A model generated the notes under the pieces. That model made no database searches. It saw only the letters and a program-made list of their open reading frames with translations, and was not told where the DNA came from. The position numbers and the translations under genes were made by a program. A stretch of 64,000 nucleotides of DNA from NCBI GenBank assembly GCA_036382775.1, contig DASVHD010000030.1, positions 1-64,000 on the forward strand. The letters are read 5' to 3'. Shown here in pieces: positions 28,318 to 42,956 of this stretch. The DNA comes from a bacterium. Its GTDB lineage: Bacteria; Hydrothermota; Tepidihabitantia; SM23-42; JAOAFX01. Each line of letters starts with the position of its first letter. Within the stretch, counting starts at the first letter, position 1.

Positions 28318-28540
28318 TCTTTCTAGTCTGTCTGATCTATCTGGTCTATGTGGTCTTTTTTAATTTGAACCAAATAAATGAATAAACTTTTTATTATGAG
28401 TTTAATCCTGCTTTCCTAACCTCATAACTTCATAGCTTCCCAACTTCATCTTTTTTTATCCCCGTATCCCCATTTTTTTCCTAACCTCCTAACCTCACAG
28501 CCTCTTAACTTCATAACCTCGATTTTTATCTCATCCCCTC
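28318..28540. repeat. Word-like low-complexity spacer (TAACCTCC/TAACTTCA type)
   Basis: The convergent gap between the TPR gene and the recombinase holds degenerate 8-10 bp words such as CTAACCTCATAACTTC, repeated about ten times, plus a preceding TCTGTCTGATCTATCTGGTC stretch and T-tracts. No gene or clear terminator hairpin is seen. It marks the left edge of the AT-rich island. Confidence 0.65.
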
Positions 28541-29450
28541 ATCCCTTCTTCTTTTTTTTATACCAGCTCATTTCACTTGGATGACAATCTTTATGAACTT
28601 GATGCAAATATTCCCGGTCTACGTGCGTATAGATTTGCGTAGTCGAAATATCGACATGTCCTAGCAACTCCTGAACAACACGTAGATCAGCTCCTGCTTC
28701 GAGCAAGTGTGCAGCGAAGGAGTGGCGGAACATGTGCGGCGTTACACGTTTTTTAATTCCAGCTTTTATCCGATACTTACGCAGAATTTTCAAAAAGCCC
28801 ATCCGTGTCAACTGTTTACCTCGCGCGTTAACAATTAGGTATGGTATGCTTTTTTCTTTTACTAACTTAGGCCGCCCGCTTCTTAAGTAATTATCAATAG
28901 CATAAGCTGCTTTTTTACCATAGGGAACAAGACGCTGTTTATTCCCTTTGCCGATCACGCTGAGCAGTTCATCGTCGAAAAGGATATCGGAAATCTTAAG
29001 GTCTAAAAGTTCTGATATGCGCAGGCCCACTCCGTAGAGCAATTCCAAACAAGCCCGGTCCCGCAGACACAGCGGTGTTAGATCATTGGCGGATTCAATG
29101 ATCGCCTCCACTTCAATTACCGACAAGGTCTCTGGTAATTTCCGTCCTATTTTCAGCACATCGAGCGCGGTTGCAGGATTTTTTTCCACCTTGCCGATTG
29201 TCACGAGATAAGAGAAGAGAGCTTTAATACTTGAAACCTTACGGTTTATCGAAGTTGCTTTTTTACCTTTATTATATAGGTTATGTATATAACCTCTGAG
29301 TTCATCCGTGGTCGCTGATTCCAAACTCTTGCTGAGATCAGAAAAATACATATTCACCTTCTGGATATCATAGATATACGACCGGATCGTGTTGAGCTCA
29401 TGCCCCAGTGCTATCAGATAATTCTCGAAACCGGTAATAAGTTCATTCAT
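28539..29450 (-). CDS. XerC/XerD-type tyrosine recombinase
   Basis: A 303-aa site-specific recombinase. The N-terminal SAM-like core-binding domain precedes the catalytic domain with Arg in GVGLRISELL, Lys in GKGNKQRLVP, His-x-x-Arg in HMFRHSFAAHLL, His in LGHVDISTTQ and nucleophile Tyr in IYTHVDREYL. All catalytic residues are present. The ATG at 29450 overlaps the upstream metallopeptidase gene by 8 nt. It ends the restriction-modification operon, so it may be an island integrase or a shuffler of hsdS, but it could equally be the chromosomal dimer-resolution recombinase. Confidence 0.88.
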   Translation of the reverse strand: MNELITGFENYLIALGHELNTIRSYIYDIQKVNMYFSDLSKSLESATTDELRGYIHNLYNKGKKATSINRKVSSIKALFSYLVTIGKVEKNPATALDVLKIGRKLPETLSVIEVEAIIESANDLTPLCLRDRACLELLYGVGLRISELLDLKISDILFDDELLSVIGKGNKQRLVPYGKKAAYAIDNYLRSGRPKLVKEKSIPYLIVNARGKQLTRMGFLKILRKYRIKAGIKKRVTPHMFRHSFAAHLLEAGADLRVVQELLGHVDISTTQIYTHVDREYLHQVHKDCHPSEMSWYKKKKKG

Positions 29451-30006
29451 CAGTATCACCTGATCGTAAAATCCTTGCTGCATTCAGTCTTTTTTGCAGA
29501 ATAAACCAGTATGAGAAAAGTGATGATTCCAGTTTGTTGTGGTCCCTGAATTTCTTTTTAATCTCACTCCAGAATCGCTCGTTGTGATGTCTTTCAATAA
29601 TATGCACCAATTCATGATAAATGATATATTCAATAAATCTTTTAGGTAAATACTTCATCAAAGTGTTCAGAGTTATATTATGCCGGGGACTGCAGCTTGC
29701 CCATTTTGTTCGCATGCTTTTAAATAGCGTTTTATGAACTCCTATTTTTAGTTCTCTCGAATAGATTTTGATATTGTTCTCAGCTTCTTTTTTAAAAACA
29801 TCATCGGGCCGATAAATAATTTTTACATGATTACTGTATCTGAGATATTTTTTTATTAATTTGCTTTTTTCATTTATCCAATGATTGTGCCGTACAATTA
29901 CATCCTGGGCATGCATGCCTTTTGGCAATACCAAGCTAAGCTTGCCGGTTCTAAATTCAATCCTGGGATACTTGATGGCTCTGTGTACAATAGAATAACT
30001 GGCCAA
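29443..30006 (-). CDS. YgjP-like (DUF45) zinc metallopeptidase
   Basis: A 187-aa protein with the zinc site YHELVHIIERHHNERFW (HExxH plus a downstream His/Glu) and the preceding TKWASCSPRHNITLN block, both typical of the YgjP/WLM-like family. Such genes are often found next to type I restriction subunits. The TTG start at 30006 directly follows the hsdR stop. Its substrate is unknown; a link with restriction control is inferred from position only. Confidence 0.82.
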   Translation of the reverse strand: MASYSIVHRAIKYPRIEFRTGKLSLVLPKGMHAQDVIVRHNHWINEKSKLIKKYLRYSNHVKIIYRPDDVFKKEAENNIKIYSRELKIGVHKTLFKSMRTKWASCSPRHNITLNTLMKYLPKRFIEYIIYHELVHIIERHHNERFWSEIKKKFRDHNKLESSLFSYWFILQKRLNAARILRSGDTDE

Positions 30007-30007
30007 T

Positions 30008-33000
30008 CTATACTCCGTAGCTTTTGATATATTTCATAAGATCATTATACAAATTATCAACATCGGTCATTGTAAGTTTGTATTCATTTTTAAATAAACG
30101 AACGAATCTACGCACTTCCTGTTCTACGTTTTTGCAGGCCGTCGCTTGCATTATCCAACCCGGGAACATTATATCCTGCATTTGCGCGATTAATATCTTT
30201 ATTTTTTCAGCAAAATCGTCCTTTATTTTCAATTTTTGTTCTAAAACCAGAAATATGGCATATTCAAGATTCGACAAACCCAATTTCTGTTGTTTAGACA
30301 ACATTACAGATGCTGCATCGAATATTGAGACTCCTTCCTTGTATATGCGTTCATAATCCTTGGTCTTTTCCCTCCACAATTCCATTAACCTTTGCACGCG
30401 ATCGACAAGCGATTCATAAATCGGATTCGTCTGTTTATCCACCAATACAAATCTCTGCAGGGCAAACAAGATATTTGCCGCTTTTTCTTCCCTGCTTTTT
30501 ACTTTTTCTTCCAATTTTTTCAACGAATCAGCATCAAATTTTATCTCGGGTAATTCCTGTTCAATCTTTTCAATTTCCGTCGACTTATAGACGTATTTCA
30601 GCGTTTTATCATAATATTGGTGCACATATGCATCGACACTAGTGCCATGCATGACCATCTTCATATAATATGTGTAAACAGCGGAAATCCATCGATATTC
30701 TTCAAAATGCTCTAACTTATAAGGATCAGATCCTAAAAGTTCAAATGCGTTACGCAAGTGGCGGTATTTTTCTAAAAATTCCTCCTCTCTGGTCACATCG
30801 GTAGTCAGGATCTCAACCGCCTTCAGTAGCGTGCTGCGTTCATAATTTTGCATCAATTTTCCAAATATCGACTTCAATTCCGATATCAACTGATCAAACT
30901 CATGCTGGAGGCTTTCGAAATCGTTGAGCGCCTGGTCAATCACATCATCCTTGGAATACAACTCGAACGCCCGTTTGAATTCCTTCAAAATGCCGACATA
31001 GTCGATGATAACTCCGGCTTCCTTAATGCCTTTATATGGACGGTTAGTCCGCGCGATCGCCTGCAATAATCTGTGCTCTTTCAGGGGCTTATCAAGGTAC
31101 ATGGTCTGTAATACCGGCGCGTCAAATCCGGTAAGCAACATATCGGTCACGATCAGGATTTTTGGATGAGTATTTTCTTTAAATTTTTCTATTATTTTCT
31201 TCAATGTACTTTTATAATCTTTGCCATTGTAGCGGGCTCTTGCTTCACGTACATAACCGTAGATAACATCAGCATCATCCCGCTCAGATGTCATCACGAC
31301 ATCAAAATATTCACGCGGCAAGTGTTTTTCCAAAGCATTCTTGTAATGGACACATGCTTTTCGGCTGGCAGCGACGATTATCGCCTTGAATTTATTATCG
31401 ACATTTGTCTTGAAATGATTGGTAATGTCAGCTGCTATTTTTTCGATTCTTTCTTGATTTTCAAGAAATAAATTTATGGAATTCAATCTTTGTTTCAATT
31501 TCTTTTCTACTTCAGGTTTTAGCTGCTCTGGGATTTCATCCCATTCTACTTCTAAAAAGGTTTCCAGCATATCTTTTTTAAGATGCAAATTTTCAAGACG
31601 TGGTTGATATACTATCGGTACGGTGAATCCGTCCTTAATAGCATCTACGATGAAATACCGATCAAGATAATTCTCCCCAGGAGGATAAGCAAATTCCAGA
31701 TAAGTATCCCTGCGCTGTTTTTGCTTTGAAATGGGTGTACCGGTTAAAGCAAATCGGAAAGCATTCTTAAAGATTGCCTTCATTTCACCGGCAAGCGTCC
31801 CGTACTGGGTACGGTGTCCTTCATCAATGAAAGCAATCACATTTTTACGCGTCATGATCGTATTTCTATCTTTGCTGATCTTTTCAAGATGCTTTCGCAA
31901 TGTATCAAGTTCGTCAAATCGGAATTTATGAATTAAAGTTATAAATAAACCGCGTTTTCCCTGGTAATTATCATGCTTTAAAATAGCCTCCAATTCTTCG
32001 ACTGTATTTAATATTTCAGGCTGTACAATATCCAAAGAGAAAAATTCCGTATAGAGCTGTTCTTCAAGCTCTATACGGTCCACGATGAAAAAAATGGATG
32101 GATTTTCCAAAAAATTATCGAAATACAACTTATGCGCTGCGAATATCATGGTCAGTGTCTTGCCGCTCCCCTGCCAATGCCAGATCAATCCATTTTTCCT
32201 ATCTAAATGCCTCTCCCTCGATGGGAGAGGATCGGGGTGAGGATGTAGATTTGTTATTACCCTTTCCACCATCTTATTCGCCGCCCGGTATTGCATGTAC
32301 CGCGTAATAACCTTTGTCGCATTACCCATTTCCACTCGGTAAAACAAAAAATTTCTAACTATATCAAGCAGCTTATATGGCTCCAATATTTCCAATACCG
32401 CATCTACGCTATTTATATTTTTGTCATTCTGAGTGGAGCGAAGAATCTCTTCTGTCCTCCGCCATTCATGACATTTAACATCCTCTTTTTTCTGCCAGGG
32501 TACAATCGGAAAATATCGTGCCTGGCTCTCGGCCGCGATACCTATTTGAACATATTTATATAATTCGGGTACTGAATCTTCGTACTCCTTTATTTGCGCA
32601 AAGGCATCATACCATGAAGTTCCCGGTTTGGTCGGGTCCTTGCACTCGATATTCACCAAAGGAATGCCATTTACATAAAGCACGATATCGGTACGTATTT
32701 TTTCTTTGCCGGAATATTGAACCTGCCTGCTAACAACAAATTCATTACTACCAACAAATCCCTCTCCCTTGATGGGAGAGGCCTTTCCATCTTGTTCCCT
32801 CTCCCTTGATGGGAGAGGGTGAGGGTGAGGGTGAATATCATAATCAAACAACTGTACAAACTTAATCACCCTCTCTTTTTCAAGTTTGACCGGCACGCCG
32901 AATTTGAAATAATTCAAAATCCGCTTTGCACCCTCCTGCCCACTGGTGACAAGTTTCAGCTCGTTCAGAACCTTGCTTATTTCCTCATCACCGATGCCCG

Positions 33001-33166
33001 TATCTTTATTAATGCGCTGAATACAACGTATAAGAGTGGAAACCAACAACGGCTCTTCAAAACTCTCCCGTTCTAGCTGCTCGGCAGGCACAAACTTCCA
33101 ACCAAGCTCCTGCAAACGCTTTATGAAATAATCTTCGACCAATGATTTTTCAGAAAATTTATCCAT
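30008..33166 (-). CDS. hsdR: Type I restriction endonuclease subunit R, with in-frame repeat insertions
   Basis: A 1052-aa motor/nuclease subunit. The N-terminal nuclease site is RTDIVLYVNGIPLVNIECK (D...ECK); helicase motifs are Walker A WHWQGSGKTLTM, FIDEGHRTQYG, ALTGTPISKQ and QAIARTNRPYKG. The ATG at 33166 overlaps the HEPN gene by 8 nt. Three places in the N-terminal third hold foreign-looking peptides encoded by dispersed DNA repeats: around residues 112-138 (HPHPHPLPSRERE and, on the other arm, SPIKGEG), 240-250 (EILRSTQNDK) and 309-322 (HPHPDPLPSRER). All keep the frame, and flanking sequence resumes normal HsdR homology. The last insert lies about 15 residues before Walker A, so activity may be affected. 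Confidence 0.93.
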   Translation of the reverse strand: MDKFSEKSLVEDYFIKRLQELGWKFVPAEQLERESFEEPLLVSTLIRCIQRINKDTGIGDEEISKVLNELKLVTSGQEGAKRILNYFKFGVPVKLEKERVIKFVQLFDYDIHPHPHPLPSREREQDGKASPIKGEGFVGSNEFVVSRQVQYSGKEKIRTDIVLYVNGIPLVNIECKDPTKPGTSWYDAFAQIKEYEDSVPELYKYVQIGIAAESQARYFPIVPWQKKEDVKCHEWRRTEEILRSTQNDKNINSVDAVLEILEPYKLLDIVRNFLFYRVEMGNATKVITRYMQYRAANKMVERVITNLHPHPDPLPSRERHLDRKNGLIWHWQGSGKTLTMIFAAHKLYFDNFLENPSIFFIVDRIELEEQLYTEFFSLDIVQPEILNTVEELEAILKHDNYQGKRGLFITLIHKFRFDELDTLRKHLEKISKDRNTIMTRKNVIAFIDEGHRTQYGTLAGEMKAIFKNAFRFALTGTPISKQKQRRDTYLEFAYPPGENYLDRYFIVDAIKDGFTVPIVYQPRLENLHLKKDMLETFLEVEWDEIPEQLKPEVEKKLKQRLNSINLFLENQERIEKIAADITNHFKTNVDNKFKAIIVAASRKACVHYKNALEKHLPREYFDVVMTSERDDADVIYGYVREARARYNGKDYKSTLKKIIEKFKENTHPKILIVTDMLLTGFDAPVLQTMYLDKPLKEHRLLQAIARTNRPYKGIKEAGVIIDYVGILKEFKRAFELYSKDDVIDQALNDFESLQHEFDQLISELKSIFGKLMQNYERSTLLKAVEILTTDVTREEEFLEKYRHLRNAFELLGSDPYKLEHFEEYRWISAVYTYYMKMVMHGTSVDAYVHQYYDKTLKYVYKSTEIEKIEQELPEIKFDADSLKKLEEKVKSREEKAANILFALQRFVLVDKQTNPIYESLVDRVQRLMELWREKTKDYERIYKEGVSIFDAASVMLSKQQKLGLSNLEYAIFLVLEQKLKIKDDFAEKIKILIAQMQDIMFPGWIMQATACKNVEQEVRRFVRLFKNEYKLTMTDVDNLYNDLMKYIKSYGV
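32210..32230. repeat. Palindromic repeat insert in hsdR (family F, copy 3)
   Basis: CCTCTCCCTCGATGGGAGAGG, followed by ATCGGGGTGAGG. It is nearly identical to the two copies at 32760-32818 and encodes part of HPHPDPLPSRER just ahead of the HsdR Walker A. Confidence 0.85.
32421..32449. repeat. Dispersed repeat insert in hsdR (family E, copy 1)
   Basis: On the minus strand it reads GAGATTCTTCGCTCCACTCA followed by GAATGACA. It matches the pattern of copies at 39975-40004 and 43110-43144, and encodes EILRSTQNDK within HsdR. Confidence 0.75.
32760..32833. repeat. Paired palindromic repeats inserted in hsdR (family F, copies 1 and 2)
   Basis: Two copies of CCCTCTCCCTTGATGGGAGA ending GG, at 32760-32781 and 32797-32818. 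The second is followed by GTGAGGGTGAGGGTG. Each is an imperfect palindrome (CTCTCCC/GGGAGAG). Together they encode about 27 residues between HsdR family blocks FDYD and SNEFVVSRQV. Confidence 0.85.
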
Positions 33167-33950
33167 ACATTTTATCAAGCCTATTTAATTCACGAAAAAT
33201 CCATGCTAATTTTTCTTGCATGATATGACTAAATTTCACCAATTTTGGAAAAGCTTTAACTAAATAGTGTTTTGCATTATAGATTTTACTAGGAATTCCG
33301 CTATACATTGGATATCTTGAATTCTGTATAGCTGATGGTGGAATAGATAATGAAAGCATTATCAGGAGATATTCAGCTTCAGCGATATAAGGAAATATCT
33401 TTTGAAGCGTAGCCATGGCTTTGTTAGAAGTTGCCTCTGTCATGTTAGGCGCATACTTCTTTTTTGTCATTTTCGCATACGATGCGATACCATTATATAT
33501 TGTAGGAGCAACTGCGCTTAGGTTCTTTCTTCGTACCGGTCCCGACATATATTTAAGAAGGACATTTAACAATTTTCGCAATTTTGGCATTTCAATCATA
33601 TCAAATAATTTGACGTTGTTAAACACCTTTATTGTTTCATCAAGTTTATCAGGTGTTATTGCGATCTTATCTTTTCCATGTAACCATATGTCTAATGATT
33701 GCTGCCATTCCGGGGTCTCCTTAATTTTCTGCATCATGTGGCTCAAAACCCTTAATGGAAAGTGCCCGACTTTGTTCTTTAACTCAACCACCGTAAGATT
33801 ATCGTAAAGAATTCCGAATGCTTTAAACGATTTTTCTATGGACTGTTGTAGATAAAAGATTGCCTGCGGGTACAAGCGCCTTGCATAAAGAGTCTGCGCA
33901 GCTTTTAGATCCTTTTTTGCAACATTTAGGAATGCATCACATGGCTTCAT
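33159..33950 (-). CDS. HEPN-domain protein in the RM operon
   Basis: A 263-aa protein. Its first 60 residues fit a HEPN helix pair (AKKDLKAAQTLYARRLYPQ, then AIFYLQQSIEKSFKAFGI). The rest is helical and Lys-rich with no recognised motif. HEPN proteins are commonly RNases or toxins in defence loci; a canonical R-x4-6-H motif is not obvious here, only KNKVGHFPLRVLSH. The ATGA start overlaps hsdS and the end overlaps hsdR by 8 nt, so it is translationally tied to both. Probable accessory effector or toxin; function not established. Confidence 0.7.
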   Translation of the reverse strand: MKPCDAFLNVAKKDLKAAQTLYARRLYPQAIFYLQQSIEKSFKAFGILYDNLTVVELKNKVGHFPLRVLSHMMQKIKETPEWQQSLDIWLHGKDKIAITPDKLDETIKVFNNVKLFDMIEMPKLRKLLNVLLKYMSGPVRRKNLSAVAPTIYNGIASYAKMTKKKYAPNMTEATSNKAMATLQKIFPYIAEAEYLLIMLSLSIPPSAIQNSRYPMYSGIPSKIYNAKHYLVKAFPKLVKFSHIMQEKLAWIFRELNRLDKMYG

Positions 33951-35174: not shown

Positions 35175-38100
35175 CTATATTTTGGGATTTAGAAATTCTT
35201 CATCATCCTGAAGAAGAACCTGTATTTCTGCTTCTATACTATTAATCACTTGTCTTATAAAATTTCTGACTGACCCAGGAGGACATTTATCACACATTTC
35301 TCGAAGAATTGTTTTTTTGCTTTCTAGAACAGGGGGTGGCTTACCTGGCGTTGATGTTAGAGTACCAGAATTAACTACTGCAGAAAACATGCGTTTTGCA
35401 GACTTTTCCAAACTGCTTTTAAAAGCTTCCTGTAATACTTTTAGCAAAAGCGGCATTGTTACACTATTGAACTTCAAGAAACCTGCCGTGATCAAAACCT
35501 CATCTATCTTTCCGGCATTGATTTGTTCCTGAATAAACTTCTCTAAATAAGTTTCCTTTGAGCAATCTTGTTTTAAGTGGATAATTGGACTTATCAAATA
35601 CTCAAGGGTGTAAAGTAATAACGGATTACGTTTATACCAATCAATGACACATTTCAATATCATTTTATATTCATCATAATTATGTATCAACCTTGATAAA
35701 CATTTCAAACCCTCATACGGAATTGCCTCAAACCTATAAAAATCAACACCATTATGCTTTACCATCTTCATTTCCATATCCAATCGATATTTAGTAAAAT
35801 CAAGAAGACTCATAATGTCACTGCATGAAAAGTCAATAACGGTTTGTCCATTTGCATCAATACAAGGGACGTCTTTCATTAAGCGTAAAGATACACTGCG
35901 AAATTCGTTTACTTCTTCATTCTCAGGAATTGATAGATTCGCATGACGAATCCAATGCAGCATATCAGAAATCGCAGAAATCATTATTAGTGACAATGGA
36001 CCTTCTTGTTTGATAATATCATTCATCAATCTTATCATCACCAAAACGTCTTTAGTTTTTTCAAAGATAAAGTATAAATTCCGGCCAACTGAAATCCTGT
36101 TTTTCGACGACCCATTATTTATCAGCCTAGTTAACCAATTAACTTTTATATCTACTGGCATTGTGCCTTCTTCTATCAATCTTATGAATAAAGCTACTCT
36201 ACTACTTGGTACATCTGACGGACGATTCAAAATTTCATTTGCTATAACCTCAATGTGTATATTATCTAATTTGGAAATCGCTAGGTCAATTTCATTTTTA
36301 AATCTATCTGGAATTTTGCACCAAAGGTCAGGATTCGTTCGGATTGATTTGAAAATATCGGTGTTCAGTTGTGCCCAACTAAGAATGAGAGGTGGATTGC
36401 CAGTTGAATTGCATTTTTCAAGATTATCGTCCAATGAGATTAAATAAGCCACCACTTCAGAAGGCGATTTATATGAGGCATCGATCTTTTCCACCAAATT
36501 TTTCAGATCATCTGTCTTCAAATTCCATCTATGATGCATAAATTCATTAACAAACCATTCCCATCTGTTAATCGCAGGTGATTGTTTCTCTACCATGTCA
36601 AAATTTTCTATAACATATTCCGGAGCAACATAATACCTATAAACAAGATAATCAGGTGAACGAGGAAACTTTCTCAACAACTCTACTGCTTCTATAGTTC
36701 CGGGAATATCTTGAGCCCACGCAGTTATAAGAAAATTTTCGATTTCACTTAAAAGATAAAAATTGGCATCCGGAGAAATTAATGTAGCAATCATTCTGAT
36801 GACCTTAGTCCGATCATCAGCTATTCTTTTAGCCAAGGGTAATTTACTTTCAGAAACACGTCCCATGCATGTTCTTCCTATACTCCCAGCTGTTTTGATT
36901 CCCTGTATTATTATTTCTAATTTTGGATATAATAGTAATTGCCTTAATAAGTGCAATGCAGTATCTCTTAGTTCATGGATGGTTTGTGTATCTGATAAAG
37001 TACGCTCACCAAAAACAAACTGACCAGATTGTGATTGTGAATATGCGTGAGTACCAGCCAAAATTTCTGATATTGAGTTACTTATTAGTTCAGCTTCGAC
37101 TATGCTAAAATGCAAATCTCCCAGCCAAACTGATAATTCTGCTAATATGTCTTTTATCATATCTGGTCTATGATTGATGGGTGACACAGCTTCCTTAATC
37201 AAAGTTCGTGGCTTATAGTTATCATAAGTACCCTTTAATTCACTATTTGCTAATTCTCTAATTAATTGAATAGCTTTTTTTTGAAAACCTGGAATCTCCA
37301 TGATGTTGGTGATTACAGGACCAATGTTATCTAAGTTCAGTTCATAATTAACATTAAAGACCTTAATAATCGGATCTGCCGATAGTGGCGCTTTCGATCG
37401 AAGGTAAGCGTAAACCAAATCCAATATTTCTTCAGTAATGAAATAAGTTACTTTTGAAATTTGTAAGAGCCTATTTATTCTGACATTATTGGGCGTGCTG
37501 TGGGACTCGTCAATCCAGTCATAAACAATCCGTTTTAAAGTAATTTTGACCTTTTCTAAATCTCCATATCGGGATATCGCAGCTAAATTATTAAATATTG
37601 TCTCAGGACATATTCCCAGCCATCTTTGTATCAAACATTTTATAGCATTTTCGTTTAATTTGTCTAGTCTAAAAGTAAGATATAGATCGCCGATCATGTC
37701 TGGATTAAATCTCACGGACCTACCTATTTCTCTTAATACTCCAACTTCTATTAGTTTATCAATATATGTTATCAATTGTTCAGCACTAAACCCGCTAAGT
37801 GCACTTAACTTTTTAATTACTTCATTGTTATTGTTCTTTGCAAAAGGTACAACAATTGCAATATTTATCAATAAGTCATCCAATTTTTCCTTAATAATAT
37901 TGAATTTTGACAACGCCTTTTCTGTGTCATATTCGACACTGTCTACTATTTGATCTTGGAATATTCTTAAATCCATTACTCTATTTTCCATTTTATGATT
38001 CCCAATAAAAGTCAATATAAATGGATTAGAATAATGAGTCACTATAAACTCTTCATTATCTATTTTTTCTTTATCAACAACAAGGTGAAGCAATCCAAGA

Positions 38101-39062
38101 AGGTCTTGTTTGCTCCAATTTGAAATAGGCATCTCCTCAATAACACTAGCACACCTAAAATCTCTGACGATATTCCGGATTGAATCTAAGCCAGAAGTTC
38201 TGACTCCCAATATTATCTTAACTGCAAAGGCTTGGCTTTTAGCCAAAGCGATTAATGCTTTTGTTTCTTCCAAATATCTGTCAGCATCGTCTAATACTAG
38301 AATATATTTTCTTCCACACACAAGTTCATCTTGCACTGCATCATTCATATTTCTAAGACCCGGTCTAATCAGCCAACATTGTCGTTCATCATCAGCGAGA
38401 TGTGCATTTTTTGCTATATCTCTCAATAAATGTGATTTTCCGTTGCCCCCAGCAGCATAGATAATAAGTATACTTACACTATCTTTAAGAATAAATTGAT
38501 AGCATTGCCTTGATTCCCTTTCGAATTTTAATAATTTATTAGTTGATAAAAGAGTTTTTTCATATTGTTCAAAATATATTTTCCAAGGTACAAACATGGG
38601 GAATTGCGGATCTCCAAAGAAGTAGTACCTTAGAAATGGCTGCTTTTCTATTCGCATAGTCAAATCTTCTCGAGCCCAGATTTTAAGTGTTTTTGTCTTT
38701 CTTTTATTCATTACTTCGAGAATTCTGACTTCGTTGACATCCAGTTCAGCATTCGTTGCTATGCGAAGATGATCCACGTTATTCTTTTGGGCATTTTTAA
38801 GTTCTTTTTTAATCTCATTTTTCAAGTGAGGAATAGCATTTTTATGAGATTTCGTGGTCCATTTTGACTGAATAGACCATGCACCAGATTTATTCTCGTA
38901 TTGATAGAAACCGTTGAAATATCCATCCCAACCACTGTCAGCACCAATATATGGACTACTTGGAACAAATCCGGGAGAATTGCATTCGAGTGCAAATAAG
39001 TGATTAATAAATCGCTGGAAATCTTTTTCATTACCAATCTTATCCCAATTCAATTTTGTCAT
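35175..39062 (-). CDS. REase-STAND NTPase, Avs-like (1295 aa)
   Basis: A large putative defence NTPase. N-terminus (about 1-150) looks like an Mrr-type PD-(D/E)xK nuclease: DFQRFINHLF, Asp46 in GADSGWDGY, QSK at 65-67, then TNAELDVNEV and a closing YYFFG block. A P-loop follows at 203-210 (AAGGNGKS) and a Walker B at 253-259 (YILVLDD). After a winged-helix-like region the remaining 800 residues are helical repeats. This order (nuclease, STAND NTPase, helical sensor) matches antiviral Avs proteins, though the P-loop lacks the first Gly of the classic motif. The start overlaps the AbiJ-like gene as ATGA. The assignment to a known Avs type is not possible by eye. Confidence 0.75.
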   Translation of the reverse strand: MTKLNWDKIGNEKDFQRFINHLFALECNSPGFVPSSPYIGADSGWDGYFNGFYQYENKSGAWSIQSKWTTKSHKNAIPHLKNEIKKELKNAQKNNVDHLRIATNAELDVNEVRILEVMNKRKTKTLKIWAREDLTMRIEKQPFLRYYFFGDPQFPMFVPWKIYFEQYEKTLLSTNKLLKFERESRQCYQFILKDSVSILIIYAAGGNGKSHLLRDIAKNAHLADDERQCWLIRPGLRNMNDAVQDELVCGRKYILVLDDADRYLEETKALIALAKSQAFAVKIILGVRTSGLDSIRNIVRDFRCASVIEEMPISNWSKQDLLGLLHLVVDKEKIDNEEFIVTHYSNPFILTFIGNHKMENRVMDLRIFQDQIVDSVEYDTEKALSKFNIIKEKLDDLLINIAIVVPFAKNNNNEVIKKLSALSGFSAEQLITYIDKLIEVGVLREIGRSVRFNPDMIGDLYLTFRLDKLNENAIKCLIQRWLGICPETIFNNLAAISRYGDLEKVKITLKRIVYDWIDESHSTPNNVRINRLLQISKVTYFITEEILDLVYAYLRSKAPLSADPIIKVFNVNYELNLDNIGPVITNIMEIPGFQKKAIQLIRELANSELKGTYDNYKPRTLIKEAVSPINHRPDMIKDILAELSVWLGDLHFSIVEAELISNSISEILAGTHAYSQSQSGQFVFGERTLSDTQTIHELRDTALHLLRQLLLYPKLEIIIQGIKTAGSIGRTCMGRVSESKLPLAKRIADDRTKVIRMIATLISPDANFYLLSEIENFLITAWAQDIPGTIEAVELLRKFPRSPDYLVYRYYVAPEYVIENFDMVEKQSPAINRWEWFVNEFMHHRWNLKTDDLKNLVEKIDASYKSPSEVVAYLISLDDNLEKCNSTGNPPLILSWAQLNTDIFKSIRTNPDLWCKIPDRFKNEIDLAISKLDNIHIEVIANEILNRPSDVPSSRVALFIRLIEEGTMPVDIKVNWLTRLINNGSSKNRISVGRNLYFIFEKTKDVLVMIRLMNDIIKQEGPLSLIMISAISDMLHWIRHANLSIPENEEVNEFRSVSLRLMKDVPCIDANGQTVIDFSCSDIMSLLDFTKYRLDMEMKMVKHNGVDFYRFEAIPYEGLKCLSRLIHNYDEYKMILKCVIDWYKRNPLLLYTLEYLISPIIHLKQDCSKETYLEKFIQEQINAGKIDEVLITAGFLKFNSVTMPLLLKVLQEAFKSSLEKSAKRMFSAVVNSGTLTSTPGKPPPVLESKKTILREMCDKCPPGSVRNFIRQVINSIEAEIQVLLQDDEEFLNPKI

Positions 39063-39901
39063 TTCATACCTACATTTAATTTTATAATTGCATAATTAAT
39101 AAAAGCAGAGCAAGTTACAAGCATATACCTTGCTTCTGGCTCACCACAACTTATAGGTTCTTTATTTTTAGGATGTCTAATGCCTGCATCATCTGATGTC
39201 CAACCGTAGAGATTGCTAAAACTCCTTTTTAGAGCAGGATGTATTTTTAAACTATTTATGAGTTTACCAAGACTGCCTTTTTTACCTAATATGATCTGCG
39301 CCAATACATCTACTGCACTGATAGACTCCTTTATAGAATTCGCATAGTCCGGTTTTGGACGTTTGGAAAAAAGATCCAATGCTTTTGTTAAACATCCTTT
39401 CACGGGTTTATATTTGTCTGAAATGCTTAAAGCTTTTTCTATCTCCCTGTTTTCTTCTAGGTTATCTAATTCAGATGGACATATATTATTGCTTATTATT
39501 GTCAGTGGTATTTTTTCCTTCTTGAAGAGGTACAATATATCTTTCTTGAAATATTTCATTTCTGCCTTGTCTGGATGATTTTTTAATATAAATTCAATAT
39601 AATCGTATACTTCATACCACTTAAGCCTTGTTGCTAATTTACTAATTTTTGCTACAATCTGCCGAGCCTTATAAGTATCTACCTCGAATAGGTTACCATT
39701 AAAAAAATCAGTCCATACAAATTTTGCAAAAAGTAACGCAGGGGAATTACTAAATTGATCATCCACAAACCAATCATCAATTATGTCTTTATATAAAAAT
39801 TTATAAATAAGATTTAATATTTTGTTTTTTCTCACAAGAGGCATTTCGTCCTTTGCCAGCATTGGGACTTTTTTATACCCATATTTTTCAGAAAATAACA
39901 T
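39059..39901 (-). CDS. AbiJ-NTD4-like protein with C-terminal HEPN-like domain
   Basis: A 280-aa protein. The N-terminus FSEKYGYKKVPMLAKDEMP followed by a VRKNKILNLIYKF helix resembles the AbiJ N-terminal domain 4. The C-terminal half, with YANSIKESISAVDVLAQ, LYGWTSDDAGIRHPKN (an Arg-His pair) and a final helix, resembles abortive-infection HEPN nucleases. GAGGAG precedes the ATG at 39901. It is translationally coupled to the STAND gene, and the pair would work as effector plus sensor NTPase. Family calls rest on visual motif matching. Confidence 0.7.
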   Translation of the reverse strand: MLFSEKYGYKKVPMLAKDEMPLVRKNKILNLIYKFLYKDIIDDWFVDDQFSNSPALLFAKFVWTDFFNGNLFEVDTYKARQIVAKISKLATRLKWYEVYDYIEFILKNHPDKAEMKYFKKDILYLFKKEKIPLTIISNNICPSELDNLEENREIEKALSISDKYKPVKGCLTKALDLFSKRPKPDYANSIKESISAVDVLAQIILGKKGSLGKLINSLKIHPALKRSFSNLYGWTSDDAGIRHPKNKEPISCGEPEARYMLVTCSAFINYAIIKLNVGMK

Positions 39902-39974
39902 TAATACTCCTCACCTATCAGTGGAGAATAGATTAATAGGAAGTTCTCGATCCTGCTCGAACAGTAAATATTTT

Positions 39975-40004
39975 GAGATTGCTTCGCTGTCGCTCACAAT
40001 GACA
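39975..40004 (+). repeat. Dispersed repeat (family E, copy 2)
   Basis: GAGATTGCTTCGCTGTCGCT followed by CACAATGACA, in the 252-bp gap between Fic and the AbiJ-like gene. It shares its frame and ends with copies at 32421-32449 and 43110-43144. Confidence 0.7.
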
Positions 40005-40118
40005 ATGCGTAATGGTTGCTCACAATAACCATATATTCTTAACACCGGTCTATCGTACATCTGATCCCTGCCCATTTAGCGCCCCTTTGCCGCACGTTTC
40101 GCCCCTTTGGCGTTTTGC

Positions 40119-40154
40119 AATCATCAACCAAATCAGCAACCAAATCATCAACCT
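40119..40154 (+). repeat. Three tandem 12-bp repeats at the 3' end of fic
   Basis: AATCATCAACCA, AATCAGCAACCA, AATCATCAACCT in direct tandem, ending on the Fic stop codon. Two GCCCCTTTG-containing words precede them at 40080-40115. No promoter or gene is evident in this gap. Confidence 0.75.
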
Positions 40155-41191
40155 TATATAAGCTCATAATAAAGACCCCTACCTTCACCAACAGGTCTAA
40201 CAACCTTAAGATTTGTTAACTTTAATATTTCCTTATGAACAGCCTGTGGAGAAATTTTGAACATTTTTTGCATGTCTCTATTAGTGATTTTACCTTGCGC
40301 AACAAGAAATTCCACTATCTGCATCTGCCGTTCGGTAAGGGCGATCTGACCCTTTTGGGTTTTGCGCAAGCGTTCGCTACTAAGGCGCACGATTCGTTCT
40401 TTTACTGCTTGAACGCTTACATGGACGCCTTCGACAAAATACTCCAGCCACTTCGTCGTGTCAAGCATCACCTGATTGACGCTCTGTAATGCTTTATAAT
40501 ACGCCGGGCGGTCCGCGTCATAATAGTCATCAAGGCAGAAGAACTGTTTTGTGTCAAATCCTCTTTTATACAGGATCCACGAAGCAAGAATACGTGCGGT
40601 CCTGCCGTTTCCATCAATAAACGGGTGAATTCTAACGAATTCATAATGGGTAAGTCCGGCTTCTATAACCGGATCAAGCTCTTTCGCAATAGAAGAATTG
40701 AGCCAGCCGATTAGGTTTTCAACCAACCCCGGGACCTCTTCATTCTTTGGCGGTCGAAAAAAGATTTCGCCGGTCATGCGGTTACCCACAACCACATATC
40801 GAGTTCGGAATGTCCCACAATCTTCAGGATGTTCAAGTGTATCCTTTGTCACCTGTCTATGCGTTCTCAGAATATGGGCAACTGATAGCGCATCACCTTC
40901 CACAATTTTTTCAATATTTCGGAGAACCTCCAAATAATTCAACACTTCTTGTTTATCTTTTCGTGTTGCAGTGATTGTCCGCCCTTGTGCAAGTTTGGAC
41001 ACCTGCTCCAAATTCAAGTTGTTACCTTCTATATGAGTCGAAGAATGTGCAGTGCGAATAATAGCCTCGCGCCGTAGTTCAACCTCCCATTTCGGGATTA
41101 AAGGTGAATTCAGGATGACTTCGCGCGCCGCCGAGATCTTAGAGAGCAGACTTACTATATTGTGGGTATAGGTGAAGTTAGGTTGAAACAT
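40154..41191 (-). CDS. Fic/DOC family protein with C-terminal winged helix
   Basis: A 345-aa putative AMPylase (or related nucleotidyl transferase). The Fic core motif HPFIDGNGRTAR (His189) is complete. An N-terminal inhibitory helix motif STHIEGN with Glu55 indicates the class II, auto-inhibited architecture. The last 80 residues (TERQMQIVEFLVAQGKITNRD and following) look like a winged helix-turn-helix for DNA binding. It overlaps hsdM by 14 nt and therefore belongs to the RM operon. Target protein unknown. Confidence 0.9.
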   Translation of the reverse strand: MFQPNFTYTHNIVSLLSKISAAREVILNSPLIPKWEVELRREAIIRTAHSSTHIEGNNLNLEQVSKLAQGRTITATRKDKQEVLNYLEVLRNIEKIVEGDALSVAHILRTHRQVTKDTLEHPEDCGTFRTRYVVVGNRMTGEIFFRPPKNEEVPGLVENLIGWLNSSIAKELDPVIEAGLTHYEFVRIHPFIDGNGRTARILASWILYKRGFDTKQFFCLDDYYDADRPAYYKALQSVNQVMLDTTKWLEYFVEGVHVSVQAVKERIVRLSSERLRKTQKGQIALTERQMQIVEFLVAQGKITNRDMQKMFKISPQAVHKEILKLTNLKVVRPVGEGRGLYYELI

Positions 41192-42956
41192 CGTATTTGA
41201 GCTCCTTAAGGTAGTCTTCTATCTTTTTCTTGTTTTCAACAATTTCGCCATCCAGTCGATTGAGTTCTTGCCATTCTTTAGCAATATTTATCTGCTCGAT
41301 TTCTTCTTCAGGATAGACATAGAGCGTGACGTTGAGATTGTAATCGTTTTTTTCGATTTCGTTTTTTCCCACGACTCGCGAAAAGCCTTTTTCTTCAGAG
41401 AAATTCTTATATGCCTGCGTCATTTTTGCTAGGTTCGCCCCACTCAGATGGTTGAGTTTTCGTATCTCTGGGTGTTTTTCATATTCCTGACTTGCGTTTA
41501 AAAACAAGATTTTGTCTTCTCTTTCTTTCTGTTTATTTTTATGGAATATCAATATTGCACCAGGTGCGCCCGTATTGTAAAATAGTTTTTCTGGTAGTAG
41601 AATGACAGTTTCAAGCAGATCTTTATTAATAACTCCTTTTCTGATTGCTTTCTCAGCGCCGCCACGGAACAAACAGCCATTGTCAATCACAATACCCACT
41701 CTACCGCTATCAACATTGACTGATGCAAGCATGTGCTGTATCCAAGCCCAGTCCGCTGATTGTTTGGTTGGAAAACCATAGCTGAAGCGGTCATGCCAAA
41801 ATTCACCTTTCTTAAGCACATCCTCGTTATAACCATCCTGGTTCCATGGAGGATTTGCCATGCAAATATTAAATTGCTGAAGCTTTTCTCCCTGCTTGAA
41901 TTTTGGATATAGCAACGTGTCGCCTAAAGTAATGCGGGCATTGCGAATATCATGAATATAAAGATTCATCTTTGCCAATGCCAGAGTCTTATAATTAGCC
42001 TCCTGCCCGAATAAAAATAATTTGTCAGCATCTATTTTACTTTTTTCCTCTTTAATATGCTGGTACGACATAATGAGCATGCCTGCCGAACCCAGCGCCG
42101 GATCATAGATGCGATCGCCCGGCTGAGGATCAAGAATCTGCACGAGCAAATTTATCACCTCACGTGGTGTGTACACTTCGCCCTCTTTTGCCTTTTGAGG
42201 TGCGAAATACCGCAGGATCCATTCATAGGCATCGCCTAATATATCGGGTGATACGTAATGAAGGGACTGTGCGCTGAACAGTTCGACGAGTTGCCGCAGG
42301 ATTTCCGCATTTTCACGGTTGTTGGTAAATTGCACGAAATCGACATTTTCAAAAACATCGCGCAATTCGGGATTGTGCTCGGCAAGCTGCTTCATCGCAC
42401 CTGAAAATTTTTCTGCGATCCGCGCCGGATCTTTCCTGATATCTTCCCATCGGTATTCATTAGGAATATCAAAATCATGATACATGGATTGTCGCGCTTC
42501 GTGTTCAGCTTCTTTTTCGGAAAGTCCCTCTTTCGAAACGTCAGTCTTGGCTTTATCGTATTCCAAACCCCATTTATCGCAAATCCGCTTATAAAAAAGC
42601 AGTACAAGAATGAAAGTATAATCCACACGCGTACGTATCAAATCGGCAGCTTTCTTCAGCAAGACATCCAGATCGCCGCGCGTGAGCTGAGATTTATCTA
42701 TGGCCAATGTTTCTGCAATATATTTTTCTTTGCTTTTGAGTATATAAATCCTCTTTCGTGCGTCATTTGGATCAAATTTTGTTTCAAGACGTCCAGCCTT
42801 GCGTAGCTCGGATAATACCGCATTTACCTTTTCATTATTATCCTGGGTTGGTGGTTGTTCAAGAATACTAAGTGCATCCTCAAATCGAAACTCCTTATCA
42901 CTGAATTTTTGTATCAAAATATCATATCTGGTCTCAAGCCATTTTTTCAGTTTCAT
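41178..42956 (-). CDS. hsdM: Type I restriction-modification methyltransferase subunit M
   Basis: A 592-aa N6-adenine methyltransferase. AdoMet motif I is YDPALGSAGMLI (from Asp285), catalytic motif IV is NPPW at 368-371, and the N-terminal helical HsdM domain includes RTRVDYTFILVLLFYKRICD. AAGGAG precedes the ATG at 42956. It is the first gene of the island operon, 45 nt downstream of a perfect -10 box. Together with HsdS it protects host DNA. Confidence 0.95.
   Translation of the reverse strand: MKLKKWLETRYDILIQKFSDKEFRFEDALSILEQPPTQDNNEKVNAVLSELRKAGRLETKFDPNDARKRIYILKSKEKYIAETLAIDKSQLTRGDLDVLLKKAADLIRTRVDYTFILVLLFYKRICDKWGLEYDKAKTDVSKEGLSEKEAEHEARQSMYHDFDIPNEYRWEDIRKDPARIAEKFSGAMKQLAEHNPELRDVFENVDFVQFTNNRENAEILRQLVELFSAQSLHYVSPDILGDAYEWILRYFAPQKAKEGEVYTPREVINLLVQILDPQPGDRIYDPALGSAGMLIMSYQHIKEEKSKIDADKLFLFGQEANYKTLALAKMNLYIHDIRNARITLGDTLLYPKFKQGEKLQQFNICMANPPWNQDGYNEDVLKKGEFWHDRFSYGFPTKQSADWAWIQHMLASVNVDSGRVGIVIDNGCLFRGGAEKAIRKGVINKDLLETVILLPEKLFYNTGAPGAILIFHKNKQKEREDKILFLNASQEYEKHPEIRKLNHLSGANLAKMTQAYKNFSEEKGFSRVVGKNEIEKNDYNLNVTLYVYPEEEIEQINIAKEWQELNRLDGEIVENKKKIEDYLKELKYDVST

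Follow-up and report, generated by a model that had tools for sequence, protein, structure and literature searches.

Two overlapping genes of defence type, nested within a type I restriction-modification operon of a bacterium from the uncultured phylum Hydrothermota, raise the question of whether they encode the two parts of one immune system or are separate cargo genes that have come to lie side by side. The window, that is, the whole 64,000-nucleotide stretch of DNA that was analysed (contig DASVHD010000030.1 of assembly GCA_036382775.1), carries on its minus strand P0002, encoding an AbiJ_NTD4-HEPN protein, and directly behind it P0001, encoding a large STAND nucleoside triphosphatase (NTPase). 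An earlier note on this DNA had described the two as a coupled pair and as a candidate new anti-phage module. Here, we argue that P0001 and P0002 are probably independent anti-phage cargo in an exchange slot of the operon, which extends from hsdM or fic to hsdS. The features at the centre of this question are as follows.

35175..39062, minus strand: P0001, 1295 amino acids; putative PD-(D/E)XK (Mrr-like) nuclease start, nSTAND5 NTPase, long C-terminus presumed to be helical repeats
38190..38486, minus strand: nSTAND_NTPase5 domain within P0001 (PF25199, over cut-off)
39059..39901, minus strand: P0002, 280 amino acids; AbiJ_NTD4 (residues 1-158) and HEPN-fold C-terminus (residues 160-280)
39059..39062, minus strand: ATGA overlap of four bases, formed by the P0002 stop and the P0001 start

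Both open reading frames (ORFs) and their ATGA overlap were confirmed at these coordinates, in agreement with the earlier note. Chance ORFs are excluded because each protein has a curated match over its cut-off, P0002 to AbiJ_NTD4 (PF18863, 62.9 bits against 34) and P0001 to nSTAND_NTPase5 (PF25199, 39.8 bits against 34).

The pair beyond the window

A true two-gene module, in which infection sensed by the STAND protein would switch on the HEPN protein as well as the STAND protein's own nuclease, would account for the ATGA overlap, the shared operon and the defence type of both proteins. Recurrence of the pair was therefore sought from both sides. None of 137 P0002-family loci was found to hold a P0001 relative within the stretch examined. 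This set remains after the removal of L042 and L043, which duplicate L024 and L025, and it draws in part on 79 listed loci from the 458 genome-contig stretches that encode P0002 relatives; a further 50-residue match (L032, genome G038) contains no callable P0002 ORF. Relatives of P0001 were present in three genomes, the window's own included, among 985 genome searches (at most 983 genomes, as G166 and G167 were searched twice): 2 of 147 genomes of its own phylum, and 1 of 398 and 0 of 395 in two other phyla. Neither of the two relatives, L033 (G064, same class) and L133 (G302, from the phylum of Pseudomonas), stands beside a P0002-family gene; L033 is followed by a DUF3276/PurA gene, and L133 by an 83-residue ORF and then a RES-domain gene. 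The genomes of other P0002 carriers, searched for 45 of the 79 listed loci, also yielded no P0001 relative (0/45). These negative results, together with the SIR2 partner of the nearest P0002 homologue (L023, 67% identical to the window's P0002), make a two-gene module improbable.

A tightly linked downstream gene is itself absent from most of the P0002 family. Under a strict rule, no tight co-directional next gene of at least 100 residues lies behind the P0002-family gene in 105 of 135 loci, and under a laxer rule, in which small ORFs are skipped and gaps of up to 60 bases are allowed, no tightly linked next gene was seen in 94 of 132. Two loci (L151 and L156) end at the P0002-family gene and so fall outside the 135, and five loci close to an end were excluded under the laxer rule. 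Tight next genes number 30, comprising five slot partners, 22 genes that were scanned and three small ones (L165, L169, L171) that fell outside the scan. Genes following P0002-family members are diverse, with HsdR and an rRNA methylase among their products; all neighbours were called by a simple longest-ORF picker, so that small genes and starts are approximate. The "constant partner" of the earlier note is thus not borne out, and the pair does not co-occur elsewhere in what was searched, an outcome that the note had itself named as counting against a new module. P0001 and P0002 look like a local combination of cargo rather than a new two-part immune system.

Cargo between hsdM and hsdS in the host phylum

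The pair lies inside a type I operon, between fic and hsdS, exactly as had been described, in the order hsdM - fic - [252-base gap] - P0002 - P0001 - hsdS - HEPN gene - hsdR - ygjP. A search of the phylum for hsdM gave 29 rows in 25 of 147 genomes at an expectation value (E) of at most 1e-60. The 18 rows of at least 55% identity (17 genomes) were followed, and the 11 rows of 35-42% were left out; 11 of the 18 offer a readable hsdM-to-hsdS interval, window included, and seven are cut by contig ends. A P0002 relative is present in six of the 11 readable intervals, again counting the window, and across these six operons five unrelated kinds of partner stand behind it.

Window, behind P0002: STAND gene (P0001)
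L023 and L024, behind P0002: SIR2/PDC-S65
L025, behind P0002: 646-residue unknown (L025:8933-10873, genome G013)
L026, behind P0002: unknowns of 104 and 338 residues
L027, behind P0002: Schlafen/AlbA_2 gene plus a 235-residue ORF
L185, no P0002: AlbA-like, MNT and HepT-like HEPN genes
L187, no P0002: KAP NTPase and unknowns
L190, no P0002: pentapeptide-ion channel
L191, no P0002: OLD/GajA-like
L194, no P0002: metallo-beta-lactamase and an unknown

Neither a PADLOC model nor, over cut-off, a Pfam family matches the 646-residue partner at L025, a candidate unknown defence gene. The position of fic, the first cargo gene behind hsdM in the window, is taken in the relatives L024, L184 and L185 by an AlbA-like or DUF4062-HATPase gene.

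Phylogenetic trees were compared for the cargo and the restriction genes. The P0002 tree holds 79 rows, being alignment A3 minus L042 and L043 plus host-phylum rows and one plasmid row; it leaves out the viral-contig rows, four plasmid rows and ORFs outside 265-300 residues, and its bootstrap was not fully settled. All six P0002 proteins from the slot fall into a single clade (support 99/94), apart from the phylum's four other P0002 relatives in the tree; in this clade the window's P0002 is sister to that of L023 (100/100), and L024 joins next (99/88). In the HsdM tree, by contrast, the window groups with L025 and L027 (95/91), and in the HsdR tree with L025 (99/98; seven rows, two partial). 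This conflict, together with the SIR2 partner of the nearest P0002 homologue, indicates that cargo has been exchanged: P0002 and the restriction backbone have different histories, and so the slot recombines. Between L023 and L024 the SIR2 proteins are 50% identical and the P0002 proteins 54%, and because the two divergences are alike the SIR2 partner may have preceded P0001. The simplest history that the sequences suggest is one in which P0001 replaced SIR2 on the window's line.

Partner turnover, and a pair found only once, would also suit decaying or silent passenger DNA that has no present defence role. However, neither frame is interrupted along its 1295 or 280 codons, P0002 retains every position that is invariant across the 71 aligned sequences (its own included), and the Walker residues of P0001 are intact, so that passenger DNA is the least probable of the explanations considered. 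We favour independent anti-phage cargo because the P0002 family is widespread without P0001, no second co-occurrence was found, partners turn over in the slot, and the trees conflict.

Association of P0002 with restriction genes

The clade of ten P0002 proteins that holds the window (100/98) has eight members encoded between hsdM and hsdS, namely the six slot genes, archaeal L045 and Elusimicrobia L046; of the other two, one (L044) lies behind an Eco57I-type methylase gene and the other (L048) is on a short contig that carries no restriction gene. A separate Bacillota clade (100/99) has four of its five members in type I operons. Both patterns would fit a P0002 that guards the restriction enzyme as PrrC does with EcoprrI, kept inactive by the HsdMSR complex and set free once a phage blocks restriction, with P0001 an unrelated neighbour, and PrrC provides the precedent (PMC12707154, PMC3710099). 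Set against this, 124 of the 137 P0002 relatives have no HsdM or HsdR match in the stretch examined, a figure in which restriction context is undercounted since many stretches are short, and 46 are on viral contigs; the family can therefore probably act without restriction. Moreover, PrrC has an ABC NTPase (PMC3710099) and P0002 does not. A guardian role is possible but rather unlikely, and independent cargo remains the preferred reading.

P0002 has a predicted HEPN fold

The description of P0002 as AbiJ-NTD4/HEPN-like agrees both with its Pfam match and with its structure model. That model is confident (mean predicted local distance difference test score, pLDDT, 89.1; built on 71 sequences), and residues ~160-280 align to HEPN structures, the best being 1ufb_A (Z 11.9, root-mean-square deviation 2.9, 110 residues aligned). 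HEPN entries fill the top 14 places of the structural comparison, with Z from 11.9 to 6.0, and include an MNT-HEPN toxin, LsoA, AbiA, HepS and Csm6; rhodopsins appear from Z 5.9. Entries 1ufb and 2q00 and the LsoA, AbiA and Csm6 regions are counted here as HEPN although their titles are silent on this. Helical bundles can reach Z near 13 by common arrangement alone, and Foldseek gave nothing at E ≤ 0.001 for the model (1wol at probability 0.96). We make the HEPN call because a consistent block of HEPN entries is clearly separated from the unrelated ones at Z 5.9 and because it accords with what is known of the AbiJ family; a HEPN fold for the C-terminus is thereby supported at the level of the model.

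An arginine and a histidine are adjacent (R242-H243 in P0002) in all 71 aligned HEPN domains, in which N188, K191, E192, Y232 and N269 are also invariant and H221 is kept in 68. The Rx4-6H motif starting at R242 occurs in 0 of 71 aligned sequences; 19 of them contain such a string at some point after residue 160. Because Anantharaman 2013 (PMC3710099) gives Rx4-6H in its table as conserved in AbiJ, ribonuclease (RNase) activity of the P0002 subfamily is presumptive; to judge from the alignment, the missing motif lowers the case for a canonical HEPN RNase and leaves that for a HEPN fold.

The PADLOC model PDC-S32, a phage defence candidate whose label we take to mean a single-gene candidate, matches P0002 over residues 1-275 of 280 (240.2 bits, model positions 7-281 of 285). 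P0002 by itself thus already corresponds to a listed candidate. Relatives occur in 10 of 146 other genomes of the host phylum, at 46 viral-contig loci, on seven plasmids and in four phage records. The 46 AbiJ_NTD4-HEPN loci on IMG/VR viral contigs (L137-L182) indicate that phages or prophages often carry this family. At five Acinetobacter loci (L054, L085, L100, L106, L108) the AbiJ_NTD4-HEPN gene follows a 943-residue ORF, of the same length each time.

P0001 has an Avs-like layout

Avs proteins combine an N-terminal nuclease, a STAND NTPase and a long C-terminus, and are defined by the recognition of phage terminase or portal by that C-terminus. P0001 shares this layout, its nuclease being putative, and the Avs-like architecture attributed to it by the earlier note was upheld. 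Weak Walker-A matches to Avs2 were also seen, both for the P0001 profile against the PDB (E 0.2) and for L133 against the PADLOC Avs2 model (E 0.0037). P0001 differs from Avs proteins in having no PADLOC match even at E ≤ 1, against a library that includes at least an Avs2 model, and in the nSTAND5 type of its NTPase; no NCBIfam model explains it. Assignment to an established Avs type was rejected, there being no PADLOC match and the PDB match covering the Walker-A stretch of Avs2 alone. By layout P0001 is an Avs-like STAND protein outside the modelled Avs types, with a likely, still putative nuclease start.

The P-loop and Walker B core that had been proposed for the protein stands. The P-loop is A204-GGNGKS-S210 (Walker A, 204-210) and Walker B is D258-D259, and G206, G208, K209, S210, D258 and D259 are invariant across P0001, L033 and L133, which were aligned over their full length at 18-19% identity. 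The Mrr-like start fared less well: P0001 itself has no nuclease profile match, and what remains is a motif, D46 ... Q65-S-K67, that follows the pattern of a PD-(D/E)XK site. Local alignment sets its QSK against QCK of L133, a protein that is over cut-off for a helix-turn-helix, Mrr_cat (PF04471, 31.9 bits) and nSTAND5. L033 shows QCR in place of QxK, and its nuclease may therefore be inactive. Matches of P0001 to these relatives begin behind the nuclease region, at residue 112 for L033 and residue 176 for L133. The P0001 N-terminus alone had no match in 398 genomes of L133's phylum, a search that was probably too weak to reach even the nuclease domain of L133, as those genomes represent the phylum in which L133 was found. 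A model of residues 1-500 built without an alignment was too poor for use (mean pLDDT 35.4). The Mrr-like start, for which the motif is the evidence, is the weakest part of this description. The long C-terminus is presumed to consist of helical repeats; weak, sub-cut-off HEAT matches are present in L033 and L133.

No match to P0001 was found on plasmids, phages or viral contigs, and none on viral contigs with L133 as the query; single-protein peptide patterns, a weak test, revealed no closer relatives in genome contigs. PF25199 is found in 9 of 147 genomes of the host phylum at E ≤ 1e-7, and the nSTAND5 proteins of G031 and of two places in G132 have other layouts and no P0002-family neighbour in the stretches read.

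The operon and its surroundings

The remaining features of the operon are listed below.

41178..42956, minus strand: hsdM of the type I restriction operon
40154..41191, minus strand: fic, SoFic-like
39902..40153, no strand: gap of 252 bases between fic and P0002
33947..35161, minus strand: hsdS, 13 bases behind P0001
33159..33950, minus strand: second HEPN gene (PF05168), 263 amino acids, between hsdS and hsdR
30008..33178, minus strand: hsdR
29443..30006, minus strand: YgjP-like metallopeptidase, after hsdR

The guanine-plus-cytosine (GC) content is 32-44% across the operon stretch, at ~28-43 kilobases (kb), and 47-59% around it, so that this low-GC stretch resembles an island. The 252-base gap may mark the start of a transcription unit. 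At the operon end, a gene for a XerC/D-like tyrosine recombinase (28539-29483, minus strand, 42.5% GC) overlaps ygjP by 41 bases and is possibly the island's own recombinase. The YgjP-like gene is also found behind hsdR in L023, L024/L195, L026, L187 and L191, a recurring rider that has no obvious restriction role. The product of the second HEPN gene (33159-33950) is 32-35% identical to its L023 and L024 counterparts, where HsdM is 69-74% identical, and by this comparison the gene appears fast-evolving or exchanged. HsdR (30008-33178, minus strand) contains three short in-frame stretches resembling translated intergenic repeats (residues ~116-140, ~238-254 and ~312-328); guessed patterns turned up no additional copies across the window, and the first such pattern missed hsdR itself. 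The genome also has a second type I hsdM/hsdS locus outside the window (G000:C21:29220-31873).

Relation to known systems

Defence genes inside type I operons are established for prrC, tgvAB, rloF and darTG2 (PMC12707154, PMC11411939, PMC12255303), and the hsdS-hsdR site has been called a potential recombination hotspot (PMC12255303). The window likewise has defence genes between hsd genes; it differs in the site, which is hsdM/fic-hsdS, in coming from an uncultured phylum, and in its recurring AbiJ_NTD4-HEPN gene, behind which partners of five kinds stand. The presence of HEPN genes, AbiJ included, in restriction operons was described in 2013, with AbiJ proteins that lack the N-terminal domain being the more frequent there (PMC3710099). 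P0002 shares the AbiJ_NTD4 N-terminus and HEPN-fold C-terminus of that family, whereas here it is an NTD4 protein that lies inside the restriction operon, with R and H adjacent in the 71 aligned sequences. As for PDC-S32, P0002 matches it over its full length and many P0002 relatives also stand alone, whereas the window's P0002 lies within a type I operon, beside an exchangeable gene. A search covering part of the literature found no paper on PDC-S32 or nSTAND5, none combining Avs, Mrr, STAND NTPase and HEPN, and no related paper on insertion "between hsdM and hsdS". Neither protein is of a new kind, nor is the setting in which the two lie; what is new is a matter of detail, namely this particular combination and the turnover of partners.

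Discussion

If P0001 and P0002 are independent cargo, each would act on its own. P0002 would be an AbiJ-type abortive-infection protein whose N-terminal domain senses infection or restrains the HEPN domain, which would attack RNA once infection is sensed. P0001 would be an Avs-like STAND sensor that binds a phage product through its C-terminal region, oligomerises through its NTPase and cuts DNA with its putative N-terminal PD-(D/E)XK domain. Nesting in the restriction operon would give the two genes shared expression and a layered back-up to restriction rather than join them into one machine.

Several observations weigh against this reading. A partner lies directly behind P0002 in all six slot operons of the phylum, with a four-base overlap in four of them, which could mean a selected link. 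The P0001 side of the pair was tested by two cases only, one of them on a contig of 7.7 kb (L033), and beyond the host phylum and the genomes of P0002 carriers P0001 was sampled in two phyla, at about 400 genomes each. Forty-three of the 137 P0002 loci are shorter than 12 kb, so that their restriction context is undercounted, and a PrrC-like functional tie of some P0002 lineages to restriction is a serious rival. A bolder idea, that the slot's AbiJ_NTD4-HEPN protein is a constant plug-in unit with a variant Arg-His site, translationally coupled to swappable effectors or sensors (STAND-nuclease, SIR2, Schlafen-like) and tied to the restriction enzyme, seems to us a long shot.

If the two are independent cargo in an exchange slot, genes that overlap and look like a genuine pair can have come together by accident as cargo turns over, and the window adds a case from an uncultured phylum of restriction operons in which nested defences are swapped. 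Candidate defence genes can be drawn from this operon family, among them the nSTAND5 protein, the 646-residue unknown and the SIR2 relatives of PDC-S65. Finally, with its invariant Arg-His, the HEPN domain of the AbiJ_NTD4 proteins prompts the question of whether a widespread family has departed from the Rx4-6H active site.

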